Assembly (NCBI GenBank): GCA_001931905.2
Contig: MSJI02000011.1
Span: 42,182 to 106,181, forward strand
Length of the DNA: 64,000 bases
Source: Cladosporium sp. IMV 00045
Taxonomy: Eukaryota; Ascomycota; Dothideomycetes; Cladosporiales; Cladosporiaceae
Direction of reading: 5' to 3'
Of the stretch, positions 1-52,136 are shown piece by piece. Made by a program: the position numbers and the translations under genes. The notes beneath the pieces are model-generated. The model ran no database searches and was not told the DNA's origin. It worked only from the letters and a program-made list of their open reading frames with translations. Position 1 is the first letter of the stretch. Each line of letters opens with the position of its first letter.

Positions 1-1
1 C

Positions 2-9699: not shown

Positions 9700-12600
9700 T
9701 CAAGCAGAGCCCGTAACCCTACGAATACTCCTCCTAGCCCCCTCACCCAAAACCTGCACCTTGCCCTCCTGCTCCAAACTCTTCACCGCATCAGCGAACT
9801 CCTGCCCCTCAACAGGAACAGAGCTCTGCTCGCTAAGCGTGCGCACAACATCGCCATACCTCGCACTCGCGCCACCAGAGCGAAGCATCTCATCAAGCAC
9901 GCCGAGCACGCCGTTCTTGAGATCTTCGCGACGCTTGCGCTCGCTGGCGCTGGTGCCTTCAGTCAGAAGACCCATGTCGATCAGACCGGTGCGAGCGTCC
10001 GTGGCGGCTTGTTTGAGCGCGGACTGGATGAGGCGGACGGCTTCGTTGACGTCGTCTTCGGTCACGGTCGTGGAGAGGCGCATTTTGGCGTGCGCTTCTG
10101 AGAGGCGGATCATGCTCTCTAGCTGACGGGTCGTGGCTGTGATGCGGCGCTCGGAGGCGCGGATGTCTTCTCCTAGCTTGCGCATGGCGACGTAGGCGCT
10201 TACGAGCGCTTCGGCGGCCGGGGCGGAGATTGTGGGTTGAATGTTGGAGCGGGCGTATGAGATGTAGGAGGTGAGGAACTCGACGGGCTGGGAGGATGTT
10301 AGTAAGAAGGTCTTATGGGAGAGCTCGGTATGGAGGACTTACCAAGATCTCGTCTTTGCTTGCGTTTTCAGGAGTGTCTTCCAGGTACATGCCGACCAAG
10401 TGGCGAGCGAGCTTTCTGTCAGCGGACTCCTCGATACGATCAAGCACCAGGTAGACCAAATCGAATCTACTGAGCAGAGTAGGAGGCAGGTCGATGTTCT
10501 GGGGCACCGGCAAGTTGGGATTATATTTGCTGCCGATGGGGTTGGCGGAAGCGAGAATCGATGTCCTAGCATTGAGGGTGGTGATAATGCCGGCCTTTGC
10601 AATCGAAACAGTCTGCTGCTCCATGACTTCGTGGAGCACAGATCTTGTGGACTCGGACATCTTGTCGAACTCGTCAATGCAGCACACACCGCCGTCACTC
10701 AACACCAATGCACCTGATTCAAGGACGAGAGAGCGAGTCTCTGGGTCCCTGGTCACGTACGCGGTAAGACCGACAGCGGAGGAGCCCTTTCCTGAAGTGT
10801 ACACACCACGTGGCGCAATCTTGTGAATGTACTCAAGCATCTTTGACTTCGACGTGGAAGGGTCACCGCAGAGCAGAACGTTGATGTCTCCGCGGTATTT
10901 GGGCGAGCCACCCTTTTCGAAGCTCTTGTTCGTGCCGCCGAAGAGTTGCAGGAGGATACCCTTCTTGACGTCGTCCATTTCGTAGATTGATGGTGCCAGT
11001 GAGCGAGAGAGCAGCTCATATACATCTGGCCTAGAGGCAACCTCTAGAATCTTCGCCTCTTCTTCTTCACTGACCTTACGAGTCTCCTCGATGTTGCCAG
11101 CGACTTGATCCGAGAGCTCTTCTTCGATGGTTGTTGGGTCAATGCCCATACGCTTCTTATCGACCTTTTGGATGTGAAGGCAGTCGACGTACGTCTTGAA
11201 AACGTTCTTGACTGATCTTTGTCTGGGATTGACGCGGACCTGGTTGGCCTTGAAGATACCAGTAATCTCCACTCTGTCACCAGCCTTGCACATATCCACA
11301 AGCTCGTCGTACGCGCACAGAGAGACCGAATGAGGTGTCTGACCGTCGGGCACGGAATCTGGCGTCTCTTGCAGCTTGATGACTTGCTTGTCCGCGAAGC
11401 CGGAACGGTTGTGCACGATCTGCATGCTGTTCGCAGAATTACAGATTTCTCTGGGGCATCTGGTGGGCTCGGCGATCTTGCCACGGTCGATGTCGACCTT
11501 AACAGTATGATGACAAACGGAGCAGCGGAAAAAGGCGTCTTTCATGTCGGGAATAACAGGGGTTGTGCGAATGACAAGACCCTTCACGGAAACCATTCTG
11601 TCCATGTCGCCGGGGTTCAGGTCGCGCAAATTGATGGTATTGTCCAAGCCGAACGGTCGTACGCGGTAAATCCTCTGTTCAGCTTCGGTCGCCAGATCAG
11701 GAATGTCCTCGGGCCCTTGAGCAGGAACGGGCGTTTGACCGCCGATGTTGTTGTCAACATCCGAGCTAGGCATAGGAGGCGCAGAGCTGAGATCCCTCGT
11801 TCTGTTCGCCTCGTTTTGTCTTTGTTGCGTCTGCGCTGAACGCATGGTGTCCATCTTCTTTTCAGCCAGCTCAACGATCACCTCCTTGACGACGGTGTCC
11901 ATCAAGGGGACAATTTCACTTGGGAAAGACTGCAACTGGTGCCAAAGCTTCCTGGTGGGAGGGTAGGCCTTCAGGTTTCTGACGTCGAGGTAGAGGAAGC
12001 GGACACCGAGATCCAGCATGGTCTCCAGCATTGTAACGTACTCCTTCTCACGTCCGGGATGGCTAGCGTCAAGTGTCGTGCCTTCTTCAAGCTCTCCGTC
12101 TGCGATCATGCGGTATTTCTTCTCGAAGTTGAGCAAAAAGTCCCTCATCGCTCTGAAAGAATGCTGAATGACAATATTGGTACCCCAAATGACGGCGCCA
12201 GTGCCTCCACCCATCTGATCAGCATCTGAAGTGTTGGGATTGAGGTTAGAGAAAGTTGCCGCATCTGATGGGCCATCGGCAATGGGCATGCCGTTCTCGT
12301 CGATGAACATTCTCCTTCTCCGGCTACTGCTGGGGTTCATGATATCGGAATCAATATCGTGGCGTCTGTTCATTGCGTTCGTTTGGCTCCTGAGGGGAGA
12401 GCGGACGAACAAACCGCTCGAGCTAGTTCTATCGGGACCGCGTGCATCGCTCATAGGACCAGCGGAATCGGAGCTGGAGGCATAGTGGATGGGAGATGAG
12501 TCTGTGGTATGTTAGCTCCCGCTTGTAACTCGATTATACAATAAATGCAACGTACCACCACCCATACCGCCGCTCGCTCTTGGAGTCCTTCCTCCTTCGC

Positions 12601-12964
12601 TACTCGGCGGGCCCATCTGCCTCTTCAGAGGCGAGCTGGCACCAGCCGCCGCAGCGCCTTGACGTCCAGATTGGCTCTGACTCTGGCTTCCGTTCGGGCT
12701 GGATCTGAAAAACAGGGGACTCGACGTGGGAGGTGCTTGGCTCTGAGAGATGTTCTGGGAAGACCGCGCATTTCCACGGGGCGTAGCATCTTGCATGTTT
12801 GCATCGGACGCTTCTGAGCGCAGTTGTTCGTCGGCGGCGGCATTTTCCCTGCCATTGTTGGGGAGCGAGGGGCTCGAAGCGGGTGCTTGTGAAGATCGTG
12901 CAGAGCGACGAGGTGTGCCGTTCGTCGAGCTGCGGTTCGAGCGACGCTGCTCTGGCGAAGACAT
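9700..12964 (-). CDS. mcm4: MCM4, replicative helicase subunit (complete copy)
   Basis: Subunit of the MCM2-7 helicase that is loaded at replication origins and unwinds DNA. Exons are 12556-12964, 10343-12501 and 9700-10287, with introns of 54 and 55 nt; the spliced frame gives 1,051 residues. The N-terminus is a long Ser/Pro/Gln-rich tail, the usual target of DDK and CDK kinases. It is followed by the OB/zinc region (CSVC..CPREIC), Walker A GDPSTSKSK, Walker B CCIDEFDKM and the arginine finger LLSRFDL. The C-terminal winged-helix part lies in the last exon. MCM4 is preferred over other MCMs by the N-terminal GTNIVIQHSFRAMRDFL region. The gene spans the start of the duplicated block at 11448, so its 3' part exists only here. 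Its divergent partner upstream is TBCA. Confidence 0.96.
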
Positions 12965-13267
12965 GGTGGGTGTTTTGTATTTGCGACAGAAAGACGCTGT
13001 CGGTGTGGGCAGAGAGAGTGAGTATGTGCAGTGTTTAGACTTGAGGGGCTTGCGCTGTTTCGCAGCAACGGTGAAAACGCGTTGCGCGAAGCTCTCGCGA
13101 GGCAGGCGCGACGCAGCCACTTAAACCTCTTTTGAGCTCTAGCGCCGAATTTCGTGGATGGCCAGCGAGAGACTCCAAACCGACCCCTCCACAGATCGAG
13201 AGGAATATCAAAAGTCACTTCTGAAACAAGAATATAACACAAGACCAGCGAAACCAATTCACAGATA
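12965..13267. promoter_or_regulatory. Divergent promoter, MCM4 (minus) and TBCA (plus)
   Basis: About 300 bases between two divergent start codons. It contains ACGCGT at 13077-13082 and a TCTCGCGAGG element shortly after. Both are discussed under the separate MCB entry and in the findings. Confidence 0.7.
13077..13082. promoter_or_regulatory. Putative MluI cell-cycle box (ACGCGT) upstream of MCM4
   Basis: Perfect ACGCGT about 115 bases upstream of the MCM4 start codon. In yeasts and filamentous fungi this is the core binding site of MBF, which drives G1/S expression of DNA-replication genes, so its place here fits. The equivalent segment of copy B carries a small deletion and lacks it. Function is inferred from the motif and its position only. 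Confidence 0.55.
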
Positions 13268-13731
13268 ATGCCTGCCCCTTCTCAGCTCGCAATTGCCACT
13301 TCGGCACTCAACCGCCTGGTCAAGGAGGAGGCCAGCTATCACAGCGAACTTGAGGAGCAAAGTGCACGCATCGCTAAGCTCGAGGCCGGCGAGGGTGCCG
13401 ACGATGAGAACGCCGAGTACATTCTGAGACAAAACGTGAGCATCTAATCGCTCGGTAGGGTTTGGTGGTCATCCACTTACAGCCGTTACAGAAGCAAGCA
13501 CTCGAACAGACTAAGGCTGTCTTCCCTCCCCTCAAACAGAAGATCGAGGATGCGTTGAGCAAGCTCGAGCAGCAGATCGTAAGGCTACTAATCTCTCGTG
13601 ATATTGTTCGTACATGATACTAACTTTACGATGTATAGGAGCAGGACAAGGACCAGGCTTCACCTGAAGAGCTCACTAAAGCCAAGGAGGCTGTCACTGC
13701 TGGACAGAACGCTGTCAAGGAAGCCTCTTAA
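13268..13731 (+). CDS. Tubulin-specific chaperone A (cofactor A), copy A
   Basis: Small chaperone that holds beta-tubulin during assembly of the alpha/beta dimer (yeast Rbl2, human TBCA). Three exons, 13268-13435, 13492-13578 and 13639-13731, with introns GTGAGC..CAG and GTAAGG..TAG; 115 residues. The whole protein is a helical bundle, as in the family: LAIATSALNRLVKEEASYHSEL, a second helix with KQALEQTKAVFPPLKQKIEDAL, and a third with EELTKAKEAVTAGQNAVKEAS. Length and helix order fit TBCA well. It shares a promoter region with MCM4 and is followed by THOC7 in a tail-to-tail arrangement 74 bases away. Confidence 0.9.
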
Positions 13732-13805
13732 TCGGAGAAAAACTTCACTCTCGGCATAGCTGTACAGACATAGATACCCATTTGAACACCCGCGAAGTTG
13801 CTGCA

Positions 13806-14909
13806 CTACGACTCGTCCATTTCCATCGTCATGCCTTCTGCTGGCTCCTTCACCTGCTCATCTTTCGCCTCGAGACCTGTAGACGCCTTCGGCTGTTCCT
13901 GAGAGTCCGCAGCCGACGGAGCCGGCGTGGCATCATCGCCCATTTCCACATCTGCAGCAACATTGGGAGTTTGCGCTCCTGGGCTGGCGGCGCGTGAAGA
14001 ATTGACAGTCCCGCCCTCGACTTCGAGAAACTTGTTCCTGGGACGTTCCTCGCCTTCATCAGTGCCCTCAGGCATTGGCGTTGCACCTCCGGGCAGAGGC
14101 GTCGATCCTTCAGGCATTGGTGTTCTTCCACCAGACTCGTGCCTAGGCGTCCTTCCATCTTCGATACCAGGCGTTCCCATTCGGCTGCGATCATCCTTCT
14201 CTCCGTCGCCGTCCTCCATAGCATCATCCTCCGCCTGCTCATCTTCTTCTGGCTCCTTGATCCCTTTAATCACCCTGCGCATGACTTCACCCTCGTGCAC
14301 CACGCGCTCAAACTGCTCCCTCCGACCATCCCAAAGACCTTCAATCTCGACACCTTCCTGCTCAAGCTCCTCGATCTCCTTCTCAAGAGTCGCGATGTCT
14401 GCCCTACACTCATCGCGAGGCTTAAGCTTCTTATCGTCGAGAATTTTTGAAGCAAGCGTGTCGTAGCCCTTTCTCAGCTCGAGCACCTTCTGCGCTTCCG
14501 CAAGCTGCTCTCGTAGCAGTAAAGTATTGTCCCTCACGGCCTGCGCGGTCGCTAAGATCTTAGCTTTCTCGGCCGCATAGCGCTCGCGTTCCCGGGCATT
14601 GGAGCTTTGGATGAGCTGGATTCGCGTGATCGAGCTTTCCAGAGCGGCAAAGTCGAGCAGGATTTCTTCTCTGAATTTCTGTCGCACGTTTGGATCGGAC
14701 GCTGGCTCTTCCTGGGTCTCTTCCGAAGCTTCTTCGCCGTCGGGGGGAGGTGAGGGTAGTTGTTTGGGTGTAGAGCGAAGAAGCGAGTCGCGGTCGAGCA
14801 GGCGTTTGGTTACACGTTGGAAAGGTCTCTCTTCAATTCCGAGCAGGCGCGTGGAATGCAATGCATCCTCGGCAGGCTGCGCCAGGATGCCATAGTTGTG
14901 CGCAGACAT
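13806..14909 (-). CDS. THO complex subunit 7-like protein, copy A
   Basis: Probable nuclear mRNA-export factor of the THO/TREX complex. The 367-residue protein has a start conserved in both copies (MSAHNYGILAQPAEDALHST). Residues about 30-240 are mostly coiled coil, with the THOC7-family segment RKGYDTLASKIL, then ECRADIATLEKEIEELEQE and a WDGRREQFERVVHEGEVMRR helix. The last third is low-complexity and acidic, with a short TPMPEGSTPLPGG-type repeat. The family call rests on the spacing of the coiled-coil motifs and is moderately sure; other THO-type coiled-coil proteins cannot be excluded. It is divergent from elongin A across about 500 bases. Confidence 0.75.
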   Translation of the reverse strand: MSAHNYGILAQPAEDALHSTRLLGIEERPFQRVTKRLLDRDSLLRSTPKQLPSPPPDGEEASEETQEEPASDPNVRQKFREEILLDFAALESSITRIQLIQSSNARERERYAAEKAKILATAQAVRDNTLLLREQLAEAQKVLELRKGYDTLASKILDDKKLKPRDECRADIATLEKEIEELEQEGVEIEGLWDGRREQFERVVHEGEVMRRVIKGIKEPEEDEQAEDDAMEDGDGEKDDRSRMGTPGIEDGRTPRHESGGRTPMPEGSTPLPGGATPMPEGTDEGEERPRNKFLEVEGGTVNSSRAASPGAQTPNVAADVEMGDDATPAPSAADSQEQPKASTGLEAKDEQVKEPAEGMTMEMDES

Positions 14910-15410
14910 GTTGCAGACGTCTCAGTGAAGCTTGTCAGTAATTGCCGCGCGCTGGTCGCGAGGTATTGAAAGGAAGATCGCTGGCGTTGGTGGTGAAGCG
15001 GAGTCGGCGGTCCGTTGCCGTCGAGGCTTATCTGATTGCTGCTCCTGGGGATGACGGCACTTGTTATAACTCCAGATGAGGACTCGCGAACCTCATGAAC
15101 TGTGTTTACACACTTCTGACATTCACTTGGGTCGCTTCCATTTGTACGGTTCCTGGACTCTTATAATGCTGCTGTCGAATCCAATACACACATCAACGCC
15201 CGATCCCCTTCCTCAGCCCTGAAGCACTGCTTCGTCGACGACCTTCGAGAACAGCTTAGTTTACACGAGCCGATTCAGGCTTGCTCTGATTTCGTAACGG
15301 ATTTGGTTTCTCGGATTGCACTGGAAACGACCGCATAGAAGTATCTTGGACATCGCATACGTTAATCGATCAACGCCGTTCCACTCGAGCCAGGAGCGAC
15401 CGTCGTCAAT
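14910..15410. promoter_or_regulatory. Divergent promoter region, THOC7 and elongin A (copy A)
   Basis: About 500 bases between two divergent starts. The central part is well conserved in copy B, but the stretch just before the elongin A start differs more. No specific factor site was recognised. Confidence 0.5.
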
Positions 15411-16484
15411 ATGCCGGCTCCTTCCCTTTCAGCCATGGCGCAAAATGCCGCCATACGCAACATCTCCAGTATCACAGACATATCGGACCTACCCTATCAC
15501 GCTGTTGAGCCCATCCTCCGGCGCATCGACAATCCACAACAACTGCGCGAGGTCGAAGTCAACTGCCCCCACATCGCCGAGAGCTCCGGTCCTTTATGGA
15601 ATGCGTTTATTAAACGTGACGTGTCGAACTCCGACCGAAAAATGATCTACCCGAAAGATCCCAGGTCGTGGTGGAAAGTCTATCGAAAGATGGTCAGGCA
15701 AGAGGAGGCGGAGAAAGCTGAGGCCGAAGAGGGACTGAAGAGGGCTATGATGGGGTTGCAAGAAGCTAAGGGCTCTAACGAAACGAAGATTGTGAATAAG
15801 GTCATGACGCAGGGACAGAAGAAGAAGACAGGGTTCTTTGACGGTGTGATGCATAGTGGCGGTGGTGGTGGGAGTAAGGCCATGCTCTGGAACGCGAAGA
15901 ATGGGCGGGATGCCTTTGGTGCGATGCAACGAGCAACTGCCAGTAAGCAAAGCGTCTTCAAACCAGTCACCAGACATACCATCCCGGACGCAAAGAGTCA
16001 AATCCGAGTGGCTCCCAAAAGCATGGCCATGGAGTATTCAAATCCCGGAAATGAGGCTGTCCTCAAGGCCGCAGCGGAGCAGAAAAAAGCCGCGGGCCTA
16101 CAACCACAAAGACAGAGAATCTTCACACCGAAGAGCAGTCTGGGCAAGACCGAAATGGCTTTCAGAAACGAAGAAATGAAGGAACAGCTAGAGAAAGAGA
16201 GGAGGCTACGCGCACTCACAAACCCTGCCGCAAGATCAGCCATGTATCCTGCTGCGGCATCGTCAACGACACAGACAGCATCTAGCTCTTCGAAACGGCC
16301 TTCAGCTGCGGCAAGTCGGCCTACAGGTGCTCAAGCCAAACGCGCAACAGAGGCCAGCTTGTCTCCCTCGCCTCCAAGATCGAACAGCCCAGCGAAGCAG
16401 CCTACACAGCAAAAGCCTGCACCGGTCAAACGAAAGCGACCGGCAGTTGACCCTTTCTTATCGGCCAAGAGAAGCCGTCCTTGA
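15411..16484 (+). CDS. Elongin A-like protein, copy A
   Basis: Single-exon protein of 357 residues belonging to the elongin A (transcription factor SIII p110) family. The N-terminal domain, about residues 20-110, has the F-box/BC-box-like stretch ISDLPYHAVEPILRRIDNP, then QQLREVEVNCPHIAESSGPLWN and RKMIYPKDPRSWWKVYRKM, which is the typical elongin A signature. The C-terminal 200 residues are basic and low-complexity, ending in a KRKRP..SAKRSRP nuclear-localisation cluster. In animals elongin A binds elongin B/C and acts in transcription elongation and Pol II ubiquitination. The start MPAPSLSAM is chosen because it is conserved in copy B, where an additional upstream ATG is not matched in copy A. 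Confidence 0.88.
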   Translation: MPAPSLSAMAQNAAIRNISSITDISDLPYHAVEPILRRIDNPQQLREVEVNCPHIAESSGPLWNAFIKRDVSNSDRKMIYPKDPRSWWKVYRKMVRQEEAEKAEAEEGLKRAMMGLQEAKGSNETKIVNKVMTQGQKKKTGFFDGVMHSGGGGGSKAMLWNAKNGRDAFGAMQRATASKQSVFKPVTRHTIPDAKSQIRVAPKSMAMEYSNPGNEAVLKAAAEQKKAAGLQPQRQRIFTPKSSLGKTEMAFRNEEMKEQLEKERRLRALTNPAARSAMYPAAASSTTQTASSSSKRPSAAASRPTGAQAKRATEASLSPSPPRSNSPAKQPTQQKPAPVKRKRPAVDPFLSAKRSRP

Positions 16485-17652
16485 ACATACGCAAATAGAT
16501 ATACCTAATTCGCACTTTGATACACCAAAATCGAGGCTCACAAAAGTTTCGCTATGAGCGCATGCCGAATAGAACATCCTCGACTCAGCTTCGACGTAAC
16601 ACAAGCAGAGTGTATCGCGTGGCTGCAGGAACATGTATTGGATATCGCAGCAATTCTACGCTGATTGTTACACCGGCGCTTTGGATCAGCTGCGCTTCGA
16701 GGGTGCTAGTCTGGCCACGAGGTGCCACGTGGATTGTAATAAATTATACCTACTGTTGCGAAAGGTACATAACGGTACATGTACATAGAAAATGCACATA
16801 GCCGCATTTGTTCGTCTCGAAAGCGGAGACGCACCAAAGATTGTATACGTCCTGTCCAAGGCCGACCTATGGAGTTGAGAGAAACCTCGGTACTGCTTTA
16901 GAGATGCATATGGCCATGTCTGATATTACCACCGTGTCTTTCCAGATAATGCTACTCAAGAACTTTGTTTTTTCTCGAACTGCATTCATACTAGTCTCTC
17001 TCTACAGAGAAATTGCTATCGATCTGAAAAGAAGCCGAGGCAGAGCCTCGGCCTCTTTGCACTTAGTGTATGCATGAGTTGAGGAACTCATATCAGCAAA
17101 TGCGTACCCAAGTCATGCCTTGCATACTTTGATCGGTTGCACCTGGTACTTGGCTGAGTTATTTCATCTCTATTGTCCATGATGGTCGAGCCTTTCATAT
17201 ATTATTCGATGTTCTCATCTGGATCACCCTATGACGGTTGCCTCGCCCGTTTCGCCCAGCCAACCAACAACGTCCGCTGGAGACTGAAACACTGACACGT
17301 AGCCAGCCACTCGTCACTCATGTTGGTCCATCACAATCCCTGCCAGTGTCGACGCGACCACGGAGCCATCGAATATAGCATTTGCCATGTCATGTAACGA
17401 TCTCATGACAACGCCATCATTAAAATAGGCTACTGCCCATGAAGCAGCCGCATCCTTGAGTTGTCCAGCTGATCAGCCAGGATAAGCCTCGCGGCTTGAC
17501 GCTATCCATGGCGTACGCCATAACCTAGATGATCGACTCCTCCGCAATTTCTTCCGTTCATCTGAGACTCTTTTCGATATCCCTAGCCTTCCACCGCATA
17601 TTCTCCATTCTCGCCTCGCAGGCTGGCTACTGGGGGGCTTGCATCTTTCTCC
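16485..17652. other. Intergenic region with E-box, between elongin A and GH76 (copy A)
   Basis: About 1.17 kb of non-coding sequence carrying the 3' UTR of elongin A and the GH76 promoter. A palindromic CCACGTGG lies at 16725-16732. The short frame around 16555-16660 is broken relative to copy B. The last 400 bases are more conserved between the copies than the middle. Confidence 0.5.
16725..16732. promoter_or_regulatory. Palindromic CCACGTGG (E-box)
   Basis: Eight-base palindrome containing CACGTG, the core site of basic helix-loop-helix regulators such as Cbf1/Pho4-type factors. It is kept in copy B at 36323-36330 within a stretch that otherwise differs. A role is not established. Confidence 0.3.
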
Positions 17653-19488
17653 ATGTCTGAGACATCCAGGCTTTTGCCTCCGCCGAGGGCTAGGGAGGCA
17701 GGATGGCAATCTACCAGTCGATATATAGCAGCCTCTGACAGGCTGGCGCGAAGGAGGAGGGTTTTCTTGCTTTGTGTGATTACATTTACGCTGCTTTACA
17801 GCATGATATCTTTCAGATCAACCGCAGCACTCGTTTCAAGCATTTCTCTCACATTCGCACTTCCTCGACCTGCTGGACAAGAAGCTGTTCAACCAGACGG
17901 GCTATCACAACAGTCGAATGGACCCGACAATAGTCCTGGGCATTGGTATTACGAATTTCAAAATGCATTGGCTACGATGCAAGGCACATCCTTTTGGGCT
18001 GGTTACGACTGGCCAGACTCAATAGACTGGATTGCGGCATTTCTGGACACACTACTCGGCGCAACCGATCGTTCATTCACAGAAATACTCGTCGAATATG
18101 ACGGCAATCTACCAGGATCATACATCGCATCAAAACCTACGATAGAAGGCGAGATCTCAAGATACCTCACGCAAATCGAATCTTTCTACGACTCGGAGAA
18201 TATTGTAGATATTTTCGGGACGGCTTTCGACGATGCTCAATGGGTTGTGCTGGAGTGGCTAGAAGTCATCAGGTTCAGCAACGAATACAAAGCATACAGC
18301 GGCAACGACACTGGGCCTAGCCAGGAGGATATCATGCATTACGCTCATCGCGCACACATCTTCTACAACCGCGTTCAGAACGAGTTCGACACATCACTAT
18401 GCGATGGCGGGCTCACGTGGAACCCTGCACTGGAACCATACAAGAACGCCATCACCAACGAGCTTTTCCTGGCCAGCTCCATGGCCATGTACTTCTACTT
18501 CCCTGGAGACTACAATACCGATCCTTATCCCAGCGCCAATTATTCATCGGAATACAACGTTACGTTGCCACCCATGCAGTTTCTCCAACCGCATGATCCA
18601 GTCTTTCTCGATAACGCACTTAAAGAATACGAATGGTTCAAATCGCAGAACTTCACGAACGAACAAGGCCTCATTGTTGACGGCTTCCACATCTCCGACA
18701 ATCAGACCACATGCGACCAGCGTAATGAGATGGTCTACACTTACAACCAAGGTGTAATCCTTTCAGGCCTGAGGGGCCTTTGGGAAGCTACTGGCGACCC
18801 GAAGTACCTTCAAGATGGATACGATCTAATCAACACAATAGTCGACGCCACAGGCTGGAACACGCGAAACACATCCGAAGCTAGCGAATGGGCAGGTCTC
18901 GGTCGCAACGGGATCATGGAAGACTATTGCGATGCATCCGCCAACTGCTCTCAAGACGCGCAGATCTTCAAAGGAATCTATTTCCACCATCTAGGAATCT
19001 TCTGTGAACCGCTACCCACAAGCGAGCCGCTCGTCGCAGGCCTGACGTCGCTTGCAGATGACGATCTAGCCGCTGCCCACAGTGGAAACTGCAATGGTTA
19101 CACGCCCTGGGTGACACACAACGCCGACGCGGCTCTCTCCACGCGCAATCAGGATAATGTCATCGGCGGTTGGTGGGGAGCCAGCAGCAACAACCGTACG
19201 CAAGCGGCAGCTTTGGACATGACTGTACCACTTCCACAAGGCAGTTCTGATGAGCGCAATGATCCTACGGTGCTTGATCAAGCACCTTGGGCTTGCCGTG
19301 GGCAACGAGGTTGTCAGCAGAATGGACGAGTCGCGAGTTCTCGGACCCCAGGCTGGTTGCCCCCGCGATCTAATAAGAAGCGCGATGTGAATGATGGCGG
19401 GCGAGGAAGGACCGTGGAGACGCAAGCCAGTGGTGTGGGCGTGATAAAGGCGGCGAGCGATTTTACGAGGGAACGACCATCTGCATGA
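17653..19488 (+). CDS. GH76-family alpha-1,6-mannanase-like protein, copy A
   Basis: Predicted cell-surface enzyme of glycoside hydrolase family 76, related to the fungal Dfg5/Dcw1 group that links GPI mannoproteins to the wall and to secreted alpha-1,6-mannanases. Single exon, 611 residues. Residues about 37-60 form a hydrophobic stretch (RRRVFLLCVITFTLLYSMIS) after a basic cytosolic tail, so it is likely a type II membrane anchor rather than a cleaved signal peptide. The catalytic Asp pair is D193-D194 in TAFDDAQWVVLEW. The family continues with DGGLTWNPALEPYKNAITNELFL, YNQGVILSGLRGLWEATGD and several N-glycosylation sites. The C-terminal 70 residues are low-complexity and basic. No GPI signal is visible. 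Neighbouring GH128, GT31 and membrane-protein genes suggest a cell-wall role. Confidence 0.9.
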   Translation: MSETSRLLPPPRAREAGWQSTSRYIAASDRLARRRRVFLLCVITFTLLYSMISFRSTAALVSSISLTFALPRPAGQEAVQPDGLSQQSNGPDNSPGHWYYEFQNALATMQGTSFWAGYDWPDSIDWIAAFLDTLLGATDRSFTEILVEYDGNLPGSYIASKPTIEGEISRYLTQIESFYDSENIVDIFGTAFDDAQWVVLEWLEVIRFSNEYKAYSGNDTGPSQEDIMHYAHRAHIFYNRVQNEFDTSLCDGGLTWNPALEPYKNAITNELFLASSMAMYFYFPGDYNTDPYPSANYSSEYNVTLPPMQFLQPHDPVFLDNALKEYEWFKSQNFTNEQGLIVDGFHISDNQTTCDQRNEMVYTYNQGVILSGLRGLWEATGDPKYLQDGYDLINTIVDATGWNTRNTSEASEWAGLGRNGIMEDYCDASANCSQDAQIFKGIYFHHLGIFCEPLPTSEPLVAGLTSLADDDLAAAHSGNCNGYTPWVTHNADAALSTRNQDNVIGGWWGASSNNRTQAAALDMTVPLPQGSSDERNDPTVLDQAPWACRGQRGCQQNGRVASSRTPGWLPPRSNKKRDVNDGGRGRTVETQASGVGVIKAASDFTRERPSA

Positions 19489-20059
19489 GTGGTTTCATGA
19501 ACTTAATGATGATAGCATATATTTTAATGATCAGTTGTTTACAACACATCCGTTCATCTCAACAACGAAAAACGAAAGTCAAGATCTCACGTCATCTTCA
19601 ACTCATGTCAAAACATGCGTCCTTGGATCTGGCTGCGGTCCGTGTGCCAAGTGGATTCCTCCATCTTGAATTCTCCATCTCCGCTCAAGCTTCATCTTTG
19701 TGTTCCGTCATTCTCCAAGCATCAGAATTGCCTTTGGAATTTTGAATAGCTCCGCGATGGATAGGAAGCTTCCTCAAAGTCTATCGCGCAGCTCTGATGA
19801 CCAACATCAGAACTGCCGTCTCGCCACGGCCAAGTATAAGTATCCGTTGGTTATCTAGCCAAGTCTTTCCTCACCCGTCTTCATCTCTAAAGCCTTGCTC
19901 GTTCGCTCGCTTTAAATCCGGTTTCGCCAAGTTGAAGATTGGCCTGCGTCATCCCATATCCATAATGCACGGGTCCGTTCATTGTTAAAAATAATGCCTG
20001 CCCGCCGGCCTATTCACTCGGTCAGGTCCAGTGAGAAAAAGACACAACTGCCGGCAAAC
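19489..20059. promoter_or_regulatory. Upstream region of GH128 (copy A)
   Basis: About 570 bases between GH76 and GH128, both on the plus strand. A TATA-like AAGTATAAGTAT lies near 19832, some 225 bases before the GH128 start. The stretch is well conserved in copy B. Confidence 0.4.
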
Positions 20060-33330: not shown

Positions 33331-33404
33331 TTGGAGAAAAAGTTCACTTTCAGCATATCTGTACAGTCATAGATACCCATCCAAACACCCACGAAGGTGC
33401 TACA

Positions 33405-40718: not shown

Positions 40719-41052
40719 TGTACACCGGGGATCCTCGGATGTGTCTTCCAACGGCACGGAAGTCATGAGACGATCTTTGGTCTGTATTGCGAACTTTCAG
40801 CGTTGTCGTTGGTAGTTTTACGTTGACGATACCACGGATTTTGAATTTTGTTTTCGTTCTTCGGCGATATACCTGGGTCACCGCCGAGGCCTTACATTTA
40901 GAATACGATATATATGAAGATATGATTAATACAGCGCATACCTGCGTTGATTCGTAAATTGGGACGCCTCTTAGTCTATCATTTGCGCTACAAAAGTGCA
41001 CGTATAGGTCGGTGTGCGTATCCCTTTTCTAGCTAAAAGTTTTCGCAATTGC
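40719..41052. other. Intergenic region between convergent genes (copy B)
   Basis: 334 bases, about 120 shorter than in copy A. No gene was seen. Confidence 0.5.
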
Positions 41053-41919: not shown

Positions 41920-42194
41920 TGCTAGAGCACGGATGCGCAAGTTGACCACTGCCTTGGTAGCTTTGTCGGCATGTGAAGAAATACTATTAGACCGGATCTG
42001 CGGATTAGATATTTTTGTTGTGGTATTCAGAAAGCTGCATGTTCGGTGTGATGCACTCCTTATCGATTGCTTCATGCAGCTAGTAAAAAGCGCGATGGAT
42101 CAAGTTAAATATAGCTTTGGGCTGAAACGAGCCGAAAAGGCGAAAAAGACGATTGCGTTCGATAAAACGGGAAACATAATACATCGAAGTATAC

Positions 42195-43688: not shown

Positions 43689-45200
43689 TCACGAAGTTGT
43701 GTTTGAAAGCCTAGGCGAAGCCACACTGTCAACAACTCGAGCCAATCTCAGTAAATCAGATATTTAGACGAGTTTGATGAGAGAATGAGTAGTATCCTCT
43801 GCGGGATACAAGTAGTCCACATGTTTAGACATCTCCAAGATATCTTCGGCACAGTGTGGACACCATCATTGTAAAAATAGGGCGGTGCTAATACAATCAC
43901 GAGCCTTTACCAACCTATGACAGCCCCGAAACCGGTGAACAGGGCGCTGTCTGATCGCGATGATTCTCGTCCAAGTCCAGGAAAAGACACGAAGGATGTG
44001 TGATGAGTCGCATTCTTGAATCCTTGTGGATCTCAGAATTCCGAAATTCTTGCAGCAGTCGTCAAGTCGCGCGATGGAAGCAAGCGTCAGATTCCAAAGA
44101 AGTTAGCACAGACTAGCACTGACGGCGACGAAAGTTCCTGCCTTGGCCGAGGAAAGAGGCGATTCTGGTTCTTGTTGACAGGTATGACAGCCCTGCAGTT
44201 TCTATCCACGTATGGTTCATCAGGTTCGGCAAATTCCTTGGAGATCCATCTAGGTAAACAGCACGATTCTTACAGCAACTCGTCTAGTGCCTTCACATGA
44301 GGGACCAGTGTTGCGTCCAGCGCCGCAATTCGGCATTGGTCTCCATCAAATCAGATCTTGGCGAAAGGCTAGGAAGAGCAGTGACGAACGTTAGAAATGG
44401 TTTCTAGTTCGTGACAGGACACCGCTCTGCCATGGTGCATACGGGGCCCGCGGGTGCTTTCATCCAAGTTAGCGGATATCATATGACGAGTCATCATATA
44501 AAGATGACGGGACGAATAAGTAAAGGAGATTCGATGCATCACATGAGGTTTAGCAGAAAACAAGATGATGTCTACACGGCAGATAGGAAAAAACAAGGGG
44601 ATGGAATTTTGGGGCTTTGCAAAGAAGCGCTGTGGCGCACGTGGCTTCTCAGCATCATCTACCTACATGTACCTTCTACTTCATCCCATTGACGCAAAGT
44701 GCTGCCTCGTTACTAACATATCATCAGTGGCATGAGAGGTATTCCAGCTGGCGAAATACCATAATGGGTAGAGCAATTATTACCCTTACCGGCGGCAGTT
44801 TCTCTCGAGGGCCACTCAGCCTACCTAACCTACTGTACTGGTTCAGCTTCTTTGGGAAGCAGTCGTAGACTTGAGTTAATCAACCAGGCCATAACGCAGC
44901 GGTAGCTGGCCCAATGTACGTCTCATAGGACGAGATGAGGCTTCTCCTGTACTGTGCCTCGCGGGGCGAAGTACATGCAGATGCATGGTAAGTGCCGCGC
45001 CAAAACGGCGGCCTCAGCCTCAGCCTCAGCCCTGGTTCGCTTAATATGGCAGCACAGGTAGCATTTCGCTGGAGTGGTTCGACCAACAATTCCTGGCTAT
45101 GGCTGAGATATCATATTGCATATATGGAACTGGCAGGAGCACATTGCGATAGCATCTCGCACAGTTAGTACTCTTATCTCATTATCAGCTCAAGTTTGCG
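43689..45200. other. Gene-poor stretch between GT31 and the CorA-like gene (copy B)
   Basis: About 1.5 kb, collinear with 24200-25715 but with many small indels. The triple hexamer (CAGCCT) is kept around 45013-45031. No coding sequence is supported. Confidence 0.5.
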
Positions 45201-46800
45201 ATGAACCAACTCTCAGACGAAGACTTCGGGAAGCGCGTCAGGCTTGCAGCCGCCGAGTCGGGCAGTACGGATAATCTACCTCCTCTGCGATCTTATCTTT
45301 CTCTTTCTGGCAGGCCTGTCGCATCTTGGTTCAATGGCTCAATTCAAGAAATACACAATCTTGACCAGGTTCTTGCCTGTGCTAAGCGAGACGCAGATAC
45401 TTCTCAGCGGGCGATATGCGTCATTGAGAATATCAGCTGGGACTGGCTATGCAGCATAGGAAACGCTTGGGATATAGAGCCGGTGTTCTTCGCAGGACAT
45501 GGTGTCAACCCAACGGGCGACGATGCTTGGTTGACGTTGTTCCCCAAGCACCGTGAATCTCCAACCGTTCAGCCAGCTCCTTCTAGGCACAAACATGTGG
45601 ACGGAGTTTTCGAACATCACTATCTTGCTAAAGATTCTATGGCGGAGGAGGAGATTCGGCGCGGACTTCTTCGCTCGTCATACCGGCGGAGATGCTGGAT
45701 CCCTAAATCTCCTTATTCACCTTCCTGCTCTACGCGTATGTCGTACTGTAGGGTTAACGCTAATCTCTGTGTGTATTCAACATGAACCCTTCATAAGACA
45801 CTTGACTCACAAGTAATAGATCTATTTCTGGTTGATCCGCCGCTATATCCAGCTTCATACGACACTCGGACTTGGGACGATAAGACTACTGCTAGTTCGC
45901 AGGAGGACCGCAAGAAGACTGCTTTACAGCTATAATGTGATACAACTGGAGATGGCATCGCAATTCCACAGCTTCTCAAAAGAAAGGTGTATAGCCTACG
46001 CCAAGCGTTGCAAAAGGTGTTCAGACACAACTGGCACTCCCACATTTTGTTCGACCAATGTGACCATGCAATCAGCCACGGCGAGCTGTTACACCTCATG
46101 ACGGCCTCTTTGCACCAAAGCAACTCCACAGCAATCCATGAGGAGGTCAAGTCGATAAGTTTTCACGAACTCCGCAAACCCAACATGTCCACAAACACCA
46201 AGCTTCTGAGATCTACGAGAAGCCTTGGCCGATCTCTCGGCATCAACAGGAGTGACAAGCAAATACGTGCCTCGTCATGTCCGTGTATTCTACAAAGACC
46301 TCTACAATCGCAATCCGGGACTCAAGGACCACCTCGGCTTTCAGTCACCAGTGGACAGACTCATTACCATCAAGCGTGAAGCCCGCGATCTCGAGCGTTT
46401 CCTTATGGACAGCTTCCAGCTTCTCATGAGTTCTATCAGTGTACAGGAGACGCAAAGGGGCGCCGAGAAAGCCCTAATCAGTATCGAACAGGCAGCGCGA
46501 ACTACGCGCCTCACGCAGCTTGCTTTTGTTTATGCGCCACTCACCTTTGTTACGAGCGTCTTCGGCATGAATGTGAAGGAGATCAGCGAGCCCTTGCCCC
46601 CTTTGTGGGTCTGCTTTGTCACACTCGCTGTTGTTGCTGCAGGTACGGCGGCGTTGTTAGGTGGTATCGAGCTTTTCATCGTCAAGAAGAAGACTACAGG
46701 CGACAATTGGGCTGCGAAGGGCAATTTAATGCTGTCGCCTAACAGCTCTGTGAATCAGGTTGGAGATCTGCAGCAGGCACGCGGCAAGATTGAGTATTAA
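45201..46800 (+). pseudogene. CorA-like protein, broken in copy B
   Basis: Same gene as 25716-27284. The 51-nt intron at 45769-45819 (GTGTGT..TAG) is kept. Two independent lesions follow: a CAA-to-TAA stop at 45933-45935, and one extra base near 46210 (CTGAGATCTACG against CTGAACCTACG in copy A) that shifts the frame. The membrane part, with FGMNVKEI, continues as an open frame to 46800. The C-terminus after LMLSP differs completely from copy A and runs about ten residues longer. A functional full-length product is unlikely; C-to-T in a CpA context is compatible with RIP but a single change proves nothing. Confidence 0.85.
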
Positions 46801-47497
46801 TGCGAACCTGCCCACTGCCTCGCTGGGCAAGCATTATTCGACGCGTGCTGCACGGCCTCGGACACAAGATCTGGACATTGATTGACATTTCGAGCCTCCA
46901 AAAAGTTTGCAGATTCTGAAGACGGAGGGTACATTCGCAGACGATACTGTACTTCTTGTTTGACCCATTCACAAGCATGCTGTTGCCCGAAGGAACCGAC
47001 TCACAGCGCTCATAGCCATCAACGCACGCGGGCAAATGCACCGCAAGATCCGTACGCGCAGGAATGTCTTGCTATTCCGGTCTGCCAATTTCTGTCAGCT
47101 TTTCTTCGCTTTCAGCCGTTGATTGACTCGAGCTCTGGCGCCGTAGCTTTGAGATATCCCAAATGTATCACTATGAAAGCCAACAAACAGGACGATCGCC
47201 CAACCTTGTGGTTGGGTGGAGCCTCACAATAATTTTGGTATTAGCCTCCTGCAACCAAATACGCGCCGTAGCAACGAAGAGAGTTGATTTGCAGATCCCC
47301 TTCCAAAGATAGAACAACCTAGCGCAGGCTGAGCAGTCCGGCGCGTACTGTGACCGCGGCGTCCAAAGGCGAGATTTAACGACATTGGCGGCCAAGACAA
47401 TACATCGCAACCCGAACACAACAAATTGCTGAACTTAAGTGTTGCAACATGTCTTCAGCGATGCGAAGCACGAATTCGAACATCATCCATCCCGTAG
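46801..47497. other. Intergenic region with extra ~280-base segment (copy B)
   Basis: About 700 bases against 360 in copy A. Bases ~46955-47235 have no counterpart in copy A. No open frame or terminal repeat stands out inside them. Confidence 0.55.
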
Positions 47498-49186
47498 ATG
47501 CGTCTACTGAACACGAAATCTTATCAACGCGGCGTCAGGAAGCTGGAGATAATTGAGAAATGGGGAGACGACATTCCACAATATGCAATCTTCTCGCATA
47601 CCTGGTCTGACTCCGAAGTACTCTTTGCCGACATTCTCAGCGGAACTTTTCGCAGCCGGGTTGGCTTCTTTAAGCTGGAAAAGGCTCTATTGCAAGCCAA
47701 GAATGACGGATGGGACTGGCTGTGGGCTGACAACTGCTGCATCGACAAAACCAACTCAGTCGAACTGAGTGAAGCGATCAACTCCATGTTCAAGTACTAC
47801 AAGGACGCCGAGATCTGCTACGCCTATCTTGCTGATGTATCTACCACCGCGTGGAAAGGCGAGATCCGAAAAGCTCGATGGTGGAAGCGTGGCTGGACAC
47901 TCCAAGAACTGATCGCTCCATCTTCTCTGCAATTCTTCTCTCGAACCTGGGACTCCTTAGGCAGCAGGAACGATCTTCGCGAAATGATCCAAGGCATCAC
48001 TGGCATCGAGGACGAGTACTTGATGGGCTATCCGATCGAGCACGCCAGTATTGCAAAACGCATGGCTTGGGCAGCGTCCCGAGAAACCACACGAGATGAA
48101 GACATAGCCTACTGCTTGATCGGCATCTTTGACGTGAACATGCCGATGCTTTACGGTGAGGGCGGGCAGCGCGCGTTCGTCAGACTACAAGAAGAAATCA
48201 TGAGAAATAGCGAGGACCACTCACTGTTCGCATGGACCAAATTGCAGGATGATAACGTACAGCACGGTCTCCTTGCAGACTGCCCAAAAGACTTTCAGAG
48301 AACGGCTTTCACGACAGCATATAAGGGCAATGCAGATTACAGTCCGCCCATCATGACAGCGAAAGGGCTTCGTATGAGTTTGCCGTTGATCCAAAAAGCG
48401 GATGGTACTTTTGTGGCGGCTCTGCTATGTCATGGAGTCGGGTACGACAGTCGACTTGCCGTCTACCTCACGAAATTGCCCACCGGAGATAATCAGTACG
48501 CCAGAGTCAAGTGCCAGGACATGGCTTCGATAGCCTGGGTTGGACAACCGCGAGAGATTTATATTCGCCAACGCTTCATTTCTATCGACGCAAGATTCGA
48601 TCGCCCGCATGGGTTTCAAATTGAAGAATTACATTGTTCAGCTGCAGATCCTGAATTGGCAGGCTATAGAATCATCGAACAGCAATCCTTGTATTCCGAC
48701 ATTTCTTCCACTCTATCGCTTAGGAGGCCAACCCCATTGCTACGGGACTGGAGTAGCGTACCCCTCGTTTATCGGATCCAAAAAAGTCCAAGAGTCCTGG
48801 CCGTAGCGCTTTTGATTCGACGCACGCTCGACAGCGAGGGCTTCGTACTCATGCTGGGAGCTCATTCAGATTTCTCCGTTGGCTTTTGTGTCGAAGAGAT
48901 TGGTAACGAAGAATCTTTGCCCCAATTCAACGACCTGCAGAAAAGTTTTGTACCACAGCCTCCAGCAACACATATGACACTCGGTCTTCACACAGTACTA
49001 GTGAACGTCCAAGAACGAGTGGAAGAGAGCGTACATACGCCTGTCAAGATCTACCATATCGGAATTGAGGTCCAAGCTAGGCCGAAACCTTCGAGAGATG
49101 ATGCTCTCGACGATGTTGTTGTCACAGTGGACAATCGAGCCAGGAAAGCTGGAGTTCGTGACAGGTTCAAGCGTTTTTGGACGTGA
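47498..49186 (+). CDS. HET-domain protein, intact (copy B)
   Basis: Protein with an N-terminal heterokaryon-incompatibility (HET) domain, the family whose members trigger cell death when incompatible fungal hyphae fuse; other members have unknown roles. 562 residues, single exon. HET motifs in order: YAIFSHTWSDSEVLFADI (about 30-47), WLWADNCCIDKTNSVELSEAI, MFKYYKDAEICYAYLADV, and KARWWKRGWTLQELIAPSSL; then the region after LGSRNDLREM with ITGIEDEYLMGY and RDEDIAYCLIGIFDVNMPMLYGEG, also typical. The C-terminal half has no recognised repeat or NACHT/WD40 domain. Relative to copy A there are many substitutions in the C-terminal half. Convergent with the transporter, about 130 bases apart. Confidence 0.9.
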   Translation: MRLLNTKSYQRGVRKLEIIEKWGDDIPQYAIFSHTWSDSEVLFADILSGTFRSRVGFFKLEKALLQAKNDGWDWLWADNCCIDKTNSVELSEAINSMFKYYKDAEICYAYLADVSTTAWKGEIRKARWWKRGWTLQELIAPSSLQFFSRTWDSLGSRNDLREMIQGITGIEDEYLMGYPIEHASIAKRMAWAASRETTRDEDIAYCLIGIFDVNMPMLYGEGGQRAFVRLQEEIMRNSEDHSLFAWTKLQDDNVQHGLLADCPKDFQRTAFTTAYKGNADYSPPIMTAKGLRMSLPLIQKADGTFVAALLCHGVGYDSRLAVYLTKLPTGDNQYARVKCQDMASIAWVGQPREIYIRQRFISIDARFDRPHGFQIEELHCSAADPELAGYRIIEQQSLYSDISSTLSLRRPTPLLRDWSSVPLVYRIQKSPRVLAVALLIRRTLDSEGFVLMLGAHSDFSVGFCVEEIGNEESLPQFNDLQKSFVPQPPATHMTLGLHTVLVNVQERVEESVHTPVKIYHIGIEVQARPKPSRDDALDDVVVTVDNRARKAGVRDRFKRFWT

Positions 49187-49320
49187 CAAATTGTGAAGCA
49201 GTATAGCGAGGTTGAACCTGGCCAGTATACATTTATCGCATCTAAACATCTATCATTCCCAGTAACGCATCGTATCATACAGTAAACCGTTTCCCCATTC
49301 CCAAAACACCTTCGAGTCAT

Positions 49321-50730
49321 CTAGCATGCAAACGGCGTGTTGCCATCTCCGTTCGCGTAGATGATATCCTGAACACTGGCATAAGTGCCACTGCCAAGCA
49401 CCAGCAACCCAATAAGGAAAATGGCGCCGTTCAGCACCGAAAGACCAATATTATGCCAGGTTCCATACCACTTGCCCTCTTTCAGCAGGTAGAACCAGAA
49501 CAAAGGCGGGAAATACAACGTAAAGCCACTGATGAACAGACTCGAGATCAGCCCGAGCAGGGCGTTAAAGACGGGAATCGCCTCAGCGATAATCCAGGCC
49601 ACGATCGTGATTGCAGCGACGAGACCGATCCAAACGGCCCAGCCCTTCTTGGTGTTCGTGTATTTGATCACCGAGTTCGGGAAGGCGCGGTTGATGATAT
49701 AGCGACCGACGACGGTTGTGTTGATCGAGCCGGAAATAAAGACGACCGGAATGGCGATACCGAAGGCGATGCGGGAAACGACGCTGCTAGCGGAAAGGAG
49801 TGCAGGGCTTTGCACCTCCGAACCGACGAACACGTAGATAAGCGAGCCGGTCAGGGTGTAAATCGTGATCTCAATCAGACCGAGGGAAAGTGACGACTTG
49901 ACGTAGTCTCTAGGAGTGTGCATCTCGTCCATGAAACTGAACTGGCACATGGCGAACGAATATGCGAACAGAATGTTGGTGATAGCGAGGAAGGCAGAGT
50001 AGAAGGTGGTGTCCTCAGGGGGAAAGGCTTGCCAGTCTACGGCTGCGAGACCGCCCGCAGCGTTGGTCGAATCAACACCAGTGGCGATAATTGTAATGCC
50101 GATGGCGAGCAAAATCGATGCGAAGTCGATATAGCCCAGAACAGCAAACTCGGCGAAAGAAGGCGGGAGTGCGAGGAAGAACAGAACGATCGCGGAAACG
50201 ATCGACCAGACCAGGGTACAGGTGCCTGTACCAGAGATCGTGTCCAGAGTGATGGCGCCAGTCAGAGCATGCGAACCAGTCGAAAGAATCAAAAGCGCAG
50301 CGAACATGAATCCAGCAAGTTCCTTTCCAAAGCGTCCCCAGATGAGACCAACAGCATCGGCATAGTGGGCGATTTCAGGAAACTTGAGCTTCACCTGACC
50401 GATAAGGTAGCTGGTGTAGATTGCAATCACACCTAGTCCAACAGTGATAAGGACGCCAGGAACGAGGCCGAGTTTCGCGTAGGCTGAAGGGATTGAAAGG
50501 GAGCCCAAGGCCACGGCCTCCACAATCATCATAATCGTAAGTCGCTTCCATCCTAGCCGGCTGTACTTGTGCTCGCCTCTCTCGATGGTCGTGTTGATGG
50601 CGAGTTCATTATCGTCGAGCAGCTTGGGATCATGACCACCCTGTTTCTTGCTTGCACCAGAATCCGAAGATGGCTTTCTGGAGGCAAACTCGTCCCCGCA
50701 GGCTTCGATGGGCTGGTGTGGAGTGGTCAT
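49321..50730 (-). CDS. AAAP-family amino-acid transporter (Mtr-like), copy B
   Basis: 469 residues with five substitutions from copy A (Asp/Glu at 14, Gly/Asp in ATGV[GD]STN, Tyr/Phe in TT[YF]YS, Val/Ile in AW[VI]IAE, Arg/His in GTW[RH]NI), although the DNA differs at many third positions. Topology as described for 29464-30873. Strong constraint on protein sequence indicates that both forms are or recently were functional. Confidence 0.92.
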   Translation of the reverse strand: MTTPHQPIEACGDEFASRKPSSDSGASKKQGGHDPKLLDDNELAINTTIERGEHKYSRLGWKRLTIMMIVEAVALGSLSIPSAYAKLGLVPGVLITVGLGVIAIYTSYLIGQVKLKFPEIAHYADAVGLIWGRFGKELAGFMFAALLILSTGSHALTGAITLDTISGTGTCTLVWSIVSAIVLFFLALPPSFAEFAVLGYIDFASILLAIGITIIATGVDSTNAAGGLAAVDWQAFPPEDTTFYSAFLAITNILFAYSFAMCQFSFMDEMHTPRDYVKSSLSLGLIEITIYTLTGSLIYVFVGSEVQSPALLSASSVVSRIAFGIAIPVVFISGSINTTVVGRYIINRAFPNSVIKYTNTKKGWAVWIGLVAAITIVAWIIAEAIPVFNALLGLISSLFISGFTLYFPPLFWFYLLKEGKWYGTWHNIGLSVLNGAIFLIGLLVLGSGTYASVQDIIYANGDGNTPFAC

Positions 50731-52136
50731 CGTTGCTCTTTGTCAGACTGCAGGATGCAAATGAGACTAAACAGCAGGAAGTGAAGACACAGACACGCGA
50801 TTAATAGAAATGCTGCGTGGACATGTATATTTAGACCAAGACATGACAAACCTAAACAGACTTGTGGGGGCCTTGGAAGGGATTTTTACGGCGCAAACAC
50901 ACGGACTGGTGTTGTGCCTGTACCTACCCGGAAGGTGGTAGCCGGAGTATGCCAGGCTGATCGCACCCGCCATAGTTCCAGAGGTTCGTCGACGATGCTG
51001 TGAATCTGAAGTTGCTATATTCTGATAGCTTTGTAGTCGAGACCATACACCCATTTTTTGCCCATCACGTCGTCCACATGGCTCTGTACGCCCTAAGAGC
51101 GCCTTGTTGCGGTCACAATAAAATGTCTGAGGCAAGCCTTAAAGCGTTGCTTAGCCTTCAAACTTTCACGCCCGGCCCGGAAAGCTTGCGCTTGAAGCAT
51201 TTTCTTTCGCACCAAGCAGGGAAGGGTCCGTTTGCCGAACTTTCAACCACATCCAGGGTTTCTTGTATGTAAAAGTTACAAATCTCATGGCTGGGGATTG
51301 GTGATGTTACTGCTTTATTTTTGCCATGTGGACTGCCGTTTCGTTTGGGTGAATCTCCGAGTCTGAATTGTCTTTTTTGTCCCCATATGTCCCCCGGGGA
51401 CTGCGCAAGTTTGTACGCTATGGCTAAACGTAAGTTGATGGGTTTATCTTTGCTATCATGAGCCCAGACAAGTTGGCGTAGTGAACAATTTTATCCAGTA
51501 TAGCATGATTCAACCATTTGACGAGAGCAAATTGTTTGCTTCAGGTTCGGCCCGGGCAGGAGTCGGAGCTCGCATCTCGTTTGCTGCAGAAAGTATGTAA
51601 GAGTCGATACCACGCGGTAGAGTATTTCCCGAAACGGTCCACATGAAGAACATCGAAATGGACGCGTCGGAGGATCTGGCTGTAGAGATCGGTATACCGC
51701 AACGTCTCAGAGATGCGTGCGCTCCAACCAGAGAAGAAGTGTGGTTGTGCACCCTTGGCAAGACGGCAAGACGCCATGATGCCGGTTCGTAAGGCATCAA
51801 GGCCACAATCTGAAGATAAGAGATAAGGCGAGCATATCTGGCAGGCGTGATTATGACTTGCCGAGGTCGGTAAGTGAAATCTTGCCGAGTGATCCCCCAC
51901 TCCAGATGAACTCCCGGTGGGGCATTCGTCAACATGGCCAGTTATGACCGCATATAAGATATGCTGCAACTGATACGCAATAGAGATAGCACATTTCCCG
52001 GTCATCGCCGTTGTTTTGCTGGGGAGCATTGATCTTACTTTTCGCGACTTTCGCATGCCGATTCTCTGATACTCATCTCATCTTTGACACTTCTACTCGC
52101 CCGCGTACATCCCTCCTTCACTCACATCGATTCGAG
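50731..52136. other. Intergenic region crossing the right border of copy B
   Basis: About 1.4 kb. The first 174 bases belong to the repeat; from 50905 the sequence is unique. It must hold the promoters of the transporter (minus) and 5-oxoprolinase (plus). Short open frames such as 51510-51935 (minus) have no family features. Confidence 0.5.

Follow-up and report, generated by a model that had tools for sequence, protein, structure and literature searches.

We analysed a stretch of 64,000 nucleotides, called the window here, from the genome assembly of the mould Cladosporium sp. IMV 00045. The window is the right end (C11:42182-106181) of scaffold C11, contig MSJI02000011.1, and within it a block of 19.7 kb is found twice, the two copies being separated by a run of 20 N. 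We conclude from sequence comparisons that this locus is very probably an assembly artefact, in which two diverged homologous copies were split and strung end to end, and not a tandem duplication. The initial annotation had favoured such a split of haplotypes or homoeologues, and support for it comes from a second gap on the same scaffold, from diverged partners on scaffolds C638 and C847, from near-equal pairs of usually single-copy genes, from the constraint seen on a truncated MCM4 gene, and from a composition of the block that is not the one left by repeat-induced point mutation (RIP).

A self-BLAST of the window (word size 20, E-value 1e-10) aligned positions 11448-31047 (copy A) with 31068-50904 (copy B) in four collinear pieces, and gave no match besides this block. 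The sole run of N in the window, at 31048-31067, lies exactly between the two, and the claim that the copies meet at a 20-N gap was thus borne out to the base. An end-to-end alignment of copy A (19,600 bases) with copy B (19,837 bases) gave 19,367 aligned columns, of which 91.6% are identical, and 34 and 29 gap runs. Mismatches make up 8.4% of aligned sites, with about two transitions per transversion, and identity is 93.4% within the open reading frames (ORFs) used for comparison and 87.8% elsewhere. Exact identity runs over 107 bases at the left end of the block and 49 at the right. A true tandem would have continuous sequence across the junction of its copies, whereas here the junction is the gap itself. 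We take the 20 N to be a placeholder for overlapping (negative-distance) contigs, by a convention which we presume, as no statement of it was found in a literature search for assembler documentation.

Hmmscan gave names to most ORFs of the block: MCM4, THOC7, Elongin A, GH76, glycosyl hydrolase, CorA, HET and amino acid transporter (Table 1), a set that we take to be that of a filamentous ascomycete. Ten ORFs of copy A, taken as open frames and not as intron-aware gene models, were compared with B codon by codon; an eleventh, 17 codons at the extreme end of A, was left out. The order of the ten is the same in both copies, as had been stated. Synonymous divergence (dS) ranges from 0.159 to 0.323 (median 0.255), and the nine ORFs besides MCM4 have a dS of 0.207-0.323 with a ratio of nonsynonymous to synonymous divergence (dN/dS) of 0.015-0.195. 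Counting stops in either copy, the MCM4 part has none, seven ORFs have one each (taken as the ORF end), HET has two and CorA three, the HET and CorA stops falling where the reading frames of A and B part.

The left border was placed inside MCM4, correctly: the ORF (10313-12454, minus strand) spans position 11448. Beyond the block, no second diverged copy of 3819-11447 was present among the matches listed (of 6 candidates, 5 were scored, and the query itself was not among the places listed), the other matches being at 66-75% on the MCM genes found by the PF00493 search. Likewise for 50905-63628, none was present among the matches listed (34 of 36 scored, own place again unlisted), and weak matches at 65-74% fell on five other scaffolds. 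At both right-hand contig ends of the scaffold, the last difference between the paired copies stands exactly 49 bases before the end, while the left-hand ends have identical runs of 107 (A/B pair) and 158 bases (a second pair, described below). Assembly graphs are described as leaving a trace when they handle repeated sequence: variants are over-represented at certain distances from the contig ends, which depend on k-mer or read length (PMC5368935). The contig ends would be the arms of a bubble reaching into sequence common to both versions.

The most likely course of events is as follows. A large share of the genome would be present in two diverged versions, in the fungus or in the culture. 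These differ here by about 8% over 19.7 kb and apparently become identical on both sides, by loss of heterozygosity or by recent shared ancestry. The assembler would have met a bubble made of a common left flank, arms A and B, and a common right flank; it would have extended the left flank into arm A and run from arm B into the right flank, leaving the arms unmerged. The scaffolder, probably relying on read pairs that placed the end of A near the right flank, would then have set the contigs head to tail and inserted a 20-N placeholder instead of an overlap.

This is an artefact of a known kind. In false heterotype duplications, divergent haplotypes are placed as adjacent paralogues with a gap between them, and gene counts are inflated (PMC9516828). 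The likeness here lies in the diverged copies, adjacent on one scaffold with the 20 N exactly between A and B. The cases described in that source are from vertebrate assemblies, whereas here we deal with a mould, a divergence of about 8%, and versions that seem rearranged. The possible hybrid genome behind the artefact is the interesting part.

A second pair on the same scaffold and a probable rearrangement

Scaffold C11 has exactly two gaps, each of 20 N. The other one (gap 1, C11:29315-29334, the gap of the window being gap 2) also ends a diverged copy: the last 7.0 kb of the contig on its left (C11:22302-29314) match C11:38978-45999 at 92.0% identity, the second member beginning 9.6 kb past the gap. 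The match ends at window position 3818, inside the ORF (17-4402) of a UDP-glucose:glycoprotein glucosyltransferase, a gene which the left contig truncates. Over 1,325 aligned codons of this frame, dS is 0.240 and dN/dS 0.064. The copy of the left contig has one in-frame stop, at index 11 of the open frame. As the first 60 codons hold no ATG, this stop may be outside the exon. At both gaps, homology between the paired copies stops on the last base of the left contig. The first base after gap 2 is the first base of copy B; at gap 1, a match to scaffold C638 ends at the first base after it. The borders of a duplication would not be expected to coincide with the ends of contigs, which favours an assembly split.

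The sequence around gap 1 has partners on two other scaffolds. C11:29335-38831 pairs with C638:33585-43195 (minus strand) in pieces of 89-96% identity, about 0.4 kb of C11 (35671-36063) being barely aligned, and C11:20301-22301 pairs with C847:47511-49348 at 90%. We predicted, before the result was obtained, that if contig 1 (X-A') and contig 2 (Y-B') stem from versions differing by a translocation or an inversion at this point, the part of C638 beyond the match (Y'-W, C638:28500-33584) would have its partner on the minus strand of C847, shortly after 49.35 kb. The partner was found at C847:49627-54340, minus strand, with 93% identity and 4,669 of the 5,085 query bases covered. The four junctions are located at C11:22.1-22.3 kb, C11:38.83-38.98 kb, C638:33.6 kb and C847:49.35-49.63 kb, and no N bases are present at those in C11 and C638. 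These matches indicate that the two versions probably differ by a translocation or an inversion; a reciprocal translocation and an inversion would give the same four junctions. Divergence is in agreement throughout, from the A/B block and the gap 1 pair to the pieces on C638 and C847.

Extent and origin of the two versions

To see how gene families are represented, we consider five families of usually single-copy genes, with these expected gene numbers: 9 for chaperonin, 14 for the proteasome, about 8 for adaptin, 3 for the RNA polymerase second subunit and 6 for MCM. A diverged version means here a match of near-equal score, mostly on a different scaffold; sequence was read for 401 bases of an adaptin trio. 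The chaperonin search (PF00118) gave 18 rows, of which 16 are of chaperonin type, some partial, and 2 belong to one long gene, probably a Fab1-type kinase; near-equal pairs are C592/C408, C878/C862 and C228/C459. For the proteasome (PF00227), 34 rows were grouped into 19 loci, with the pairs C132/C231, C603/C603, C881/C483 and C835/C901. The two C603 genes (27960-28424 and 33110-33574) lie 5 kb apart, and are a candidate false tandem; C761 and C910 are further scaffolds with candidates for such pairs. Adaptin (PF01602) gave 20 rows in 14 loci, one of them weak, with the pairs C732/C705, C181/C646 and C692/C349 and the trio C98/C257/C900. Five rows were obtained for the RNA polymerase second subunit (PF00562), with the pair C618/C116; the fifth match, at C815:63885-65087, has in-frame stops reported and may be an allele with an intron. 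Near-equal pairs are thus present in four of the five families, MCM being the exception. In total, 12 clear pairs or trios were counted for about 41 expected genes, a number that rises to at most about 20 when all extra and partial loci are included. The unpaired parts must be identical in both versions, lost from one of them, or missing from the assembly.

Members of the adaptin trio (C98:7975-8375, C257:2829-3229 and C900:212582-212982) share 384 (C98-C257), 392 (C98-C900) and 375 (C257-C900) of their 401 bases. Among the 26 variable sites, none is private to C98, while 17 are private to C257 and 9 to C900, and these are interleaved. C98 may be a mixed consensus of C257 and C900, or a third haplotype may stand behind the trio. 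We do not claim triploidy from these three versions, as C98, with no private site, looks as a mixed consensus would.

The assembly holds 49,867,185 bases (49.87 Mb) in 954 contigs, and the genome announced for C. sphaerospermum IMV 00045, from a wall of Chernobyl unit 4, has 50,156,125 bp in 959 contigs, a MaSuRCA assembly of Illumina pairs (PMC5391430). By comparison, 26.89 Mb are given for C. sphaerospermum UM 843 (PMC13232491), and 30.68 Mb for an isolate with 99.63% similarity to C. sphaerospermum in the internal transcribed spacer (PMC8949958). The assembly is thus 1.6 to 1.9 times as large as those of these two relatives, which is above a haploid size if all belong to the species complex that we infer.

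The GH76 protein was used to place the divergence of A and B among relatives. The two proteins differ at 30 of 611 residues (about 95% identity). Among the 120 matches listed, the closest named relatives are Cladosporium fusiforme (85%) and C. halotolerans (76%), and two other sequences match at 95 and 97%. Compared with sequence P0001, A differs at 19 and B at 25 of 611 residues; compared with P0002, A and B each differ at 25 of 503 aligned residues, and P0001 and P0002 differ from each other at 23. The A-B distance thus appears to be about that between separate related sequences, with C. fusiforme outside. As A and B are about as far apart as such sequences, this one gene favours the union of two lineages, whether in a hybrid or a mixture, rather than the usual allelic variation within a single population. 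The initial annotation had expected noticeable heterozygosity; the two versions are indeed diverged, but the wording is too weak for a dS of about 0.25, the GH76 distance and rearranged versions.

In a mixture, one culture or library would have contained two strains or two sister species, the split at the locus still being an artefact, so that this explanation overlaps with ours. It predicts the diverged partners and the rearrangement equally well, and the protein identity of about 95% between A and B, like that between P0001 and P0002 for this one gene, would suit it. Partial coverage of a second strain could account for MCM genes and flanks that appear a single time. On the other hand, flanks with no second version found, and contigs that end 49 bases beyond the last difference, suggest long shared stretches, which are unexpected for independent lineages at 8% divergence. 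We regard a mixed sample as possible, though doubtful. The most likely state is a partly diploid hybrid genome, the two versions of which are identical in some stretches. That both versions would sit in one hybrid nucleus, and not in a mixed culture, we hold with no more than even confidence. We put at the same level the fuller picture of a stable hybrid mould, diploid or partly so, whose parents would be about 8% apart and differ by at least one chromosome rearrangement, with differing stretches alternating with stretches of loss of heterozygosity.

Such genomes are known in other fungi. The black yeast Hortaea werneckii, also a Dothideomycete, is reported to have hybrid diploid genomes with a mean of 48.5 Mb, against 25.2-25.3 Mb for haploids, more than 60% of conserved genes duplicated, and subgenomes 88.3-91.9% identical (PMC5952469). 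Our assembly, of similar size, has two end-to-end pairs at 91.6% and 92.0%, in the rounded range of 88-92%. It belongs to another genus, however, the GH76 protein reaching at most 57% with Hortaea against 76-85% with Cladosporium among the 120 matches listed, and a sizeable share of its genes, such as MCM, has no pair. Large-scale loss of heterozygosity is described as relatively scarce in H. werneckii (PMC9535773), whereas identical stretches would seem to be common here. In Candida orthopsilosis, diploid hybrids derive from two unknown parents about 5% divergent (PMC5091853). The proposed state is alike in being a diploid hybrid of divergent parents, but that species is a yeast, while here we have a filamentous mould with versions more divergent and structurally different. 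A literature search for a published hybrid or diploid Cladosporium genome found none among the papers listed, which is weak evidence of absence since most subscription journals were outside its coverage; in another paper naming IMV 00045 (PMC6529585), the word "diploid" is absent from the main text.

Wherever such splits occur in this assembly, gene counts, family expansions and gene models at contig ends (MCM4, glucosyltransferase) are unreliable. If the versions share one nucleus, a common and much-studied mould would join the stress-tolerant Dothideomycetes persisting as hybrid diploids, and the link of hybridity with extreme tolerance would become directly testable in Cladosporium. If the culture was mixed, the assembly is unfit as a single-strain reference.

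Tandem duplication as an alternative

The truncated MCM4 gene of copy B bears on the age of any duplication. It comprises the ORF's first 335 codons, without the ATPase domain, and no second copy of the DNA of the ATPase part was present above 75% identity among the matches listed (5 of 6 candidates scored). Over the 335 codons, A and B differ by 32 synonymous and 4 nonsynonymous changes (dS 0.159, dN/dS 0.032), with no stop codon and no insertion or deletion. A dead stub evolving neutrally since the split would be expected, in a rough calculation, to have gained about 61 nonsynonymous changes on the B branch alone. Because only 4 are seen, MCM4 of copy B seems to have been whole until very recently, or to be whole still. 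Nor is B the odder copy: at one of the 4 differing residues, it is A (I) that departs from 10 of 10 aligned relatives, whereas B has their V. This constraint therefore argues against an old tandem, in which the truncated border gene would be free of selection; alone it leaves room for a recent fusion of diverged homologues.

RIP also bears on the question. The thresholds commonly applied are a TpA/ApT index above 0.89 and a (CpA+TpG)/(ApC+GpT) index below 1.03. A 372-base dispersed repeat at the scaffold end has values of 1.49 and 0.33, and hence a RIP-like pattern, which is seen neither in A (0.61 and 1.28) nor in B (0.60 and 1.29), nor in the flanks (0.53 and 1.31, 0.53 and 1.32). There is no CpA excess among the C/T differences between A and B. 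In a genome where RIP is active, a 20-kb tandem would be expected to have been hit had it ever undergone a cross; the argument is weaker in the absence of crosses.

A recent real tandem could have arisen by unequal recombination between already diverged homologues in a hybrid, leaving the versions in series. Both copies and the MCM4 fragment would then stay unmutated, and two versions of other stretches do coexist in the assembly. Yet the gap would still have to coincide exactly with the newly formed junction, on a scaffold whose other gap also ends a diverged copy, and the extra event brings no explanatory gain; we find this very improbable. Still less credible is a real, old 19.7-kb tandem in one chromosome, for which speak the same order and orientation of the copies on one scaffold and the open frames mostly kept in both, since it requires the assembly to fail exactly at the junction while the other gap of C11 also ends a diverged copy, a strongly constrained MCM4 that with no ATPase half should be a pseudogene, and a block with no RIP-like composition in a genome where a repeat has one, and it leaves the diverged partners on other scaffolds unexplained.

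Some observations weigh against an assembly split of two diverged versions. The anatomy of gap 1 differs from that of gap 2, as the second member of its pair lies 9.6 kb away from the gap. The 49-base runs differ from k-1 for the published k of 70 (PMC5391430), and the left-hand runs are 107 and 158 bases long. One adaptin gene appears in three versions. The MCM search (PF00493) yielded 6 rows at the level of the family, for 6 expected genes, and no near-equal pair; judging from these unpaired matches, two diverged versions are lacking over much of the genome. One candidate of 6 and 2 of 36 went unscored in the searches with the flanks. Finally, MCM4 would likewise be free of mutations if two diverged homologues had truly fused a short time ago, although such a fusion does not explain the gap.

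Features of the window

The features discussed above, and the other ORFs of the block, are collected in Table 1.

Table 1. Features of the window, in window coordinates (A and B denote the two copies of the block)
Feature	Position	Strand	Evidence and remarks
Second-pair member, part within the window	1..3818	+	End of C11:38978-45999; matches C11:22302-29314
Left flank	3819..11447		5 of 6 candidates scored, none a second diverged copy
MCM4 ORF	10313..12454	-	hmmscan; open across left border of copy A
Copy A	11448..31047	+	Right end of left contig, one version of the block; self-BLAST, alignment
THOC7-like ORF	A 13806..14909, B 33405-34508	-	hmmscan; dS 0.244, dN/dS 0.032
Elongin-A-like ORF	A 15411..16484, B 35014-36081	+	hmmscan; dS 0.302, dN/dS 0.043
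GH76 glycosidase ORF	A 17653..19488, B 37255-39090	+	hmmscan; dS 0.279, dN/dS 0.082
Glycosyl hydrolase catalytic-core ORF	A 19982..20827, B 39588-40438	+	hmmscan
ORF with no Pfam match	A 21565..22569, B 41053-42056	-	hmmscan
ORF with below-cutoff Fringe-like match	A 22707..23702, B 42195-43190	-	hmmscan
CorA-type transporter ORF	A 25689..27284, B about 45174-46861	+	hmmscan
HET-domain ORF	A 27644..29209, B 47498-49186	+	hmmscan; A and B frames diverge near the end
Amino acid transporter ORF	A 29464..30873, B 49321-50730	-	hmmscan; dS 0.323, dN/dS 0.015
Scaffold gap	31048..31067		20 N
Copy B	31068..50904	+	Left end of right contig, other version of the block; self-BLAST, alignment
MCM4 N-terminal part, copy B	31068..32074	-	335 codons; contig end cuts before ATPase domain
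Right flank	50905..63628		34 of 36 candidates scored, none a second diverged copy
AT-rich dispersed repeat at scaffold end	63629..64000		372 bases; RIP-like composition

No RNA family was found in the window at gathering scores. The HET-domain ORF is 521 residues long in A and 562 in B; its four closest relatives have 565-566 residues, and B is the nearer to them. The repeat at 63629-64000 is found at 22 other places with 93-99% identity and at 6 with 77-80%, and 9 of the 22 begin less than 1 kb from the first base of their own contig.

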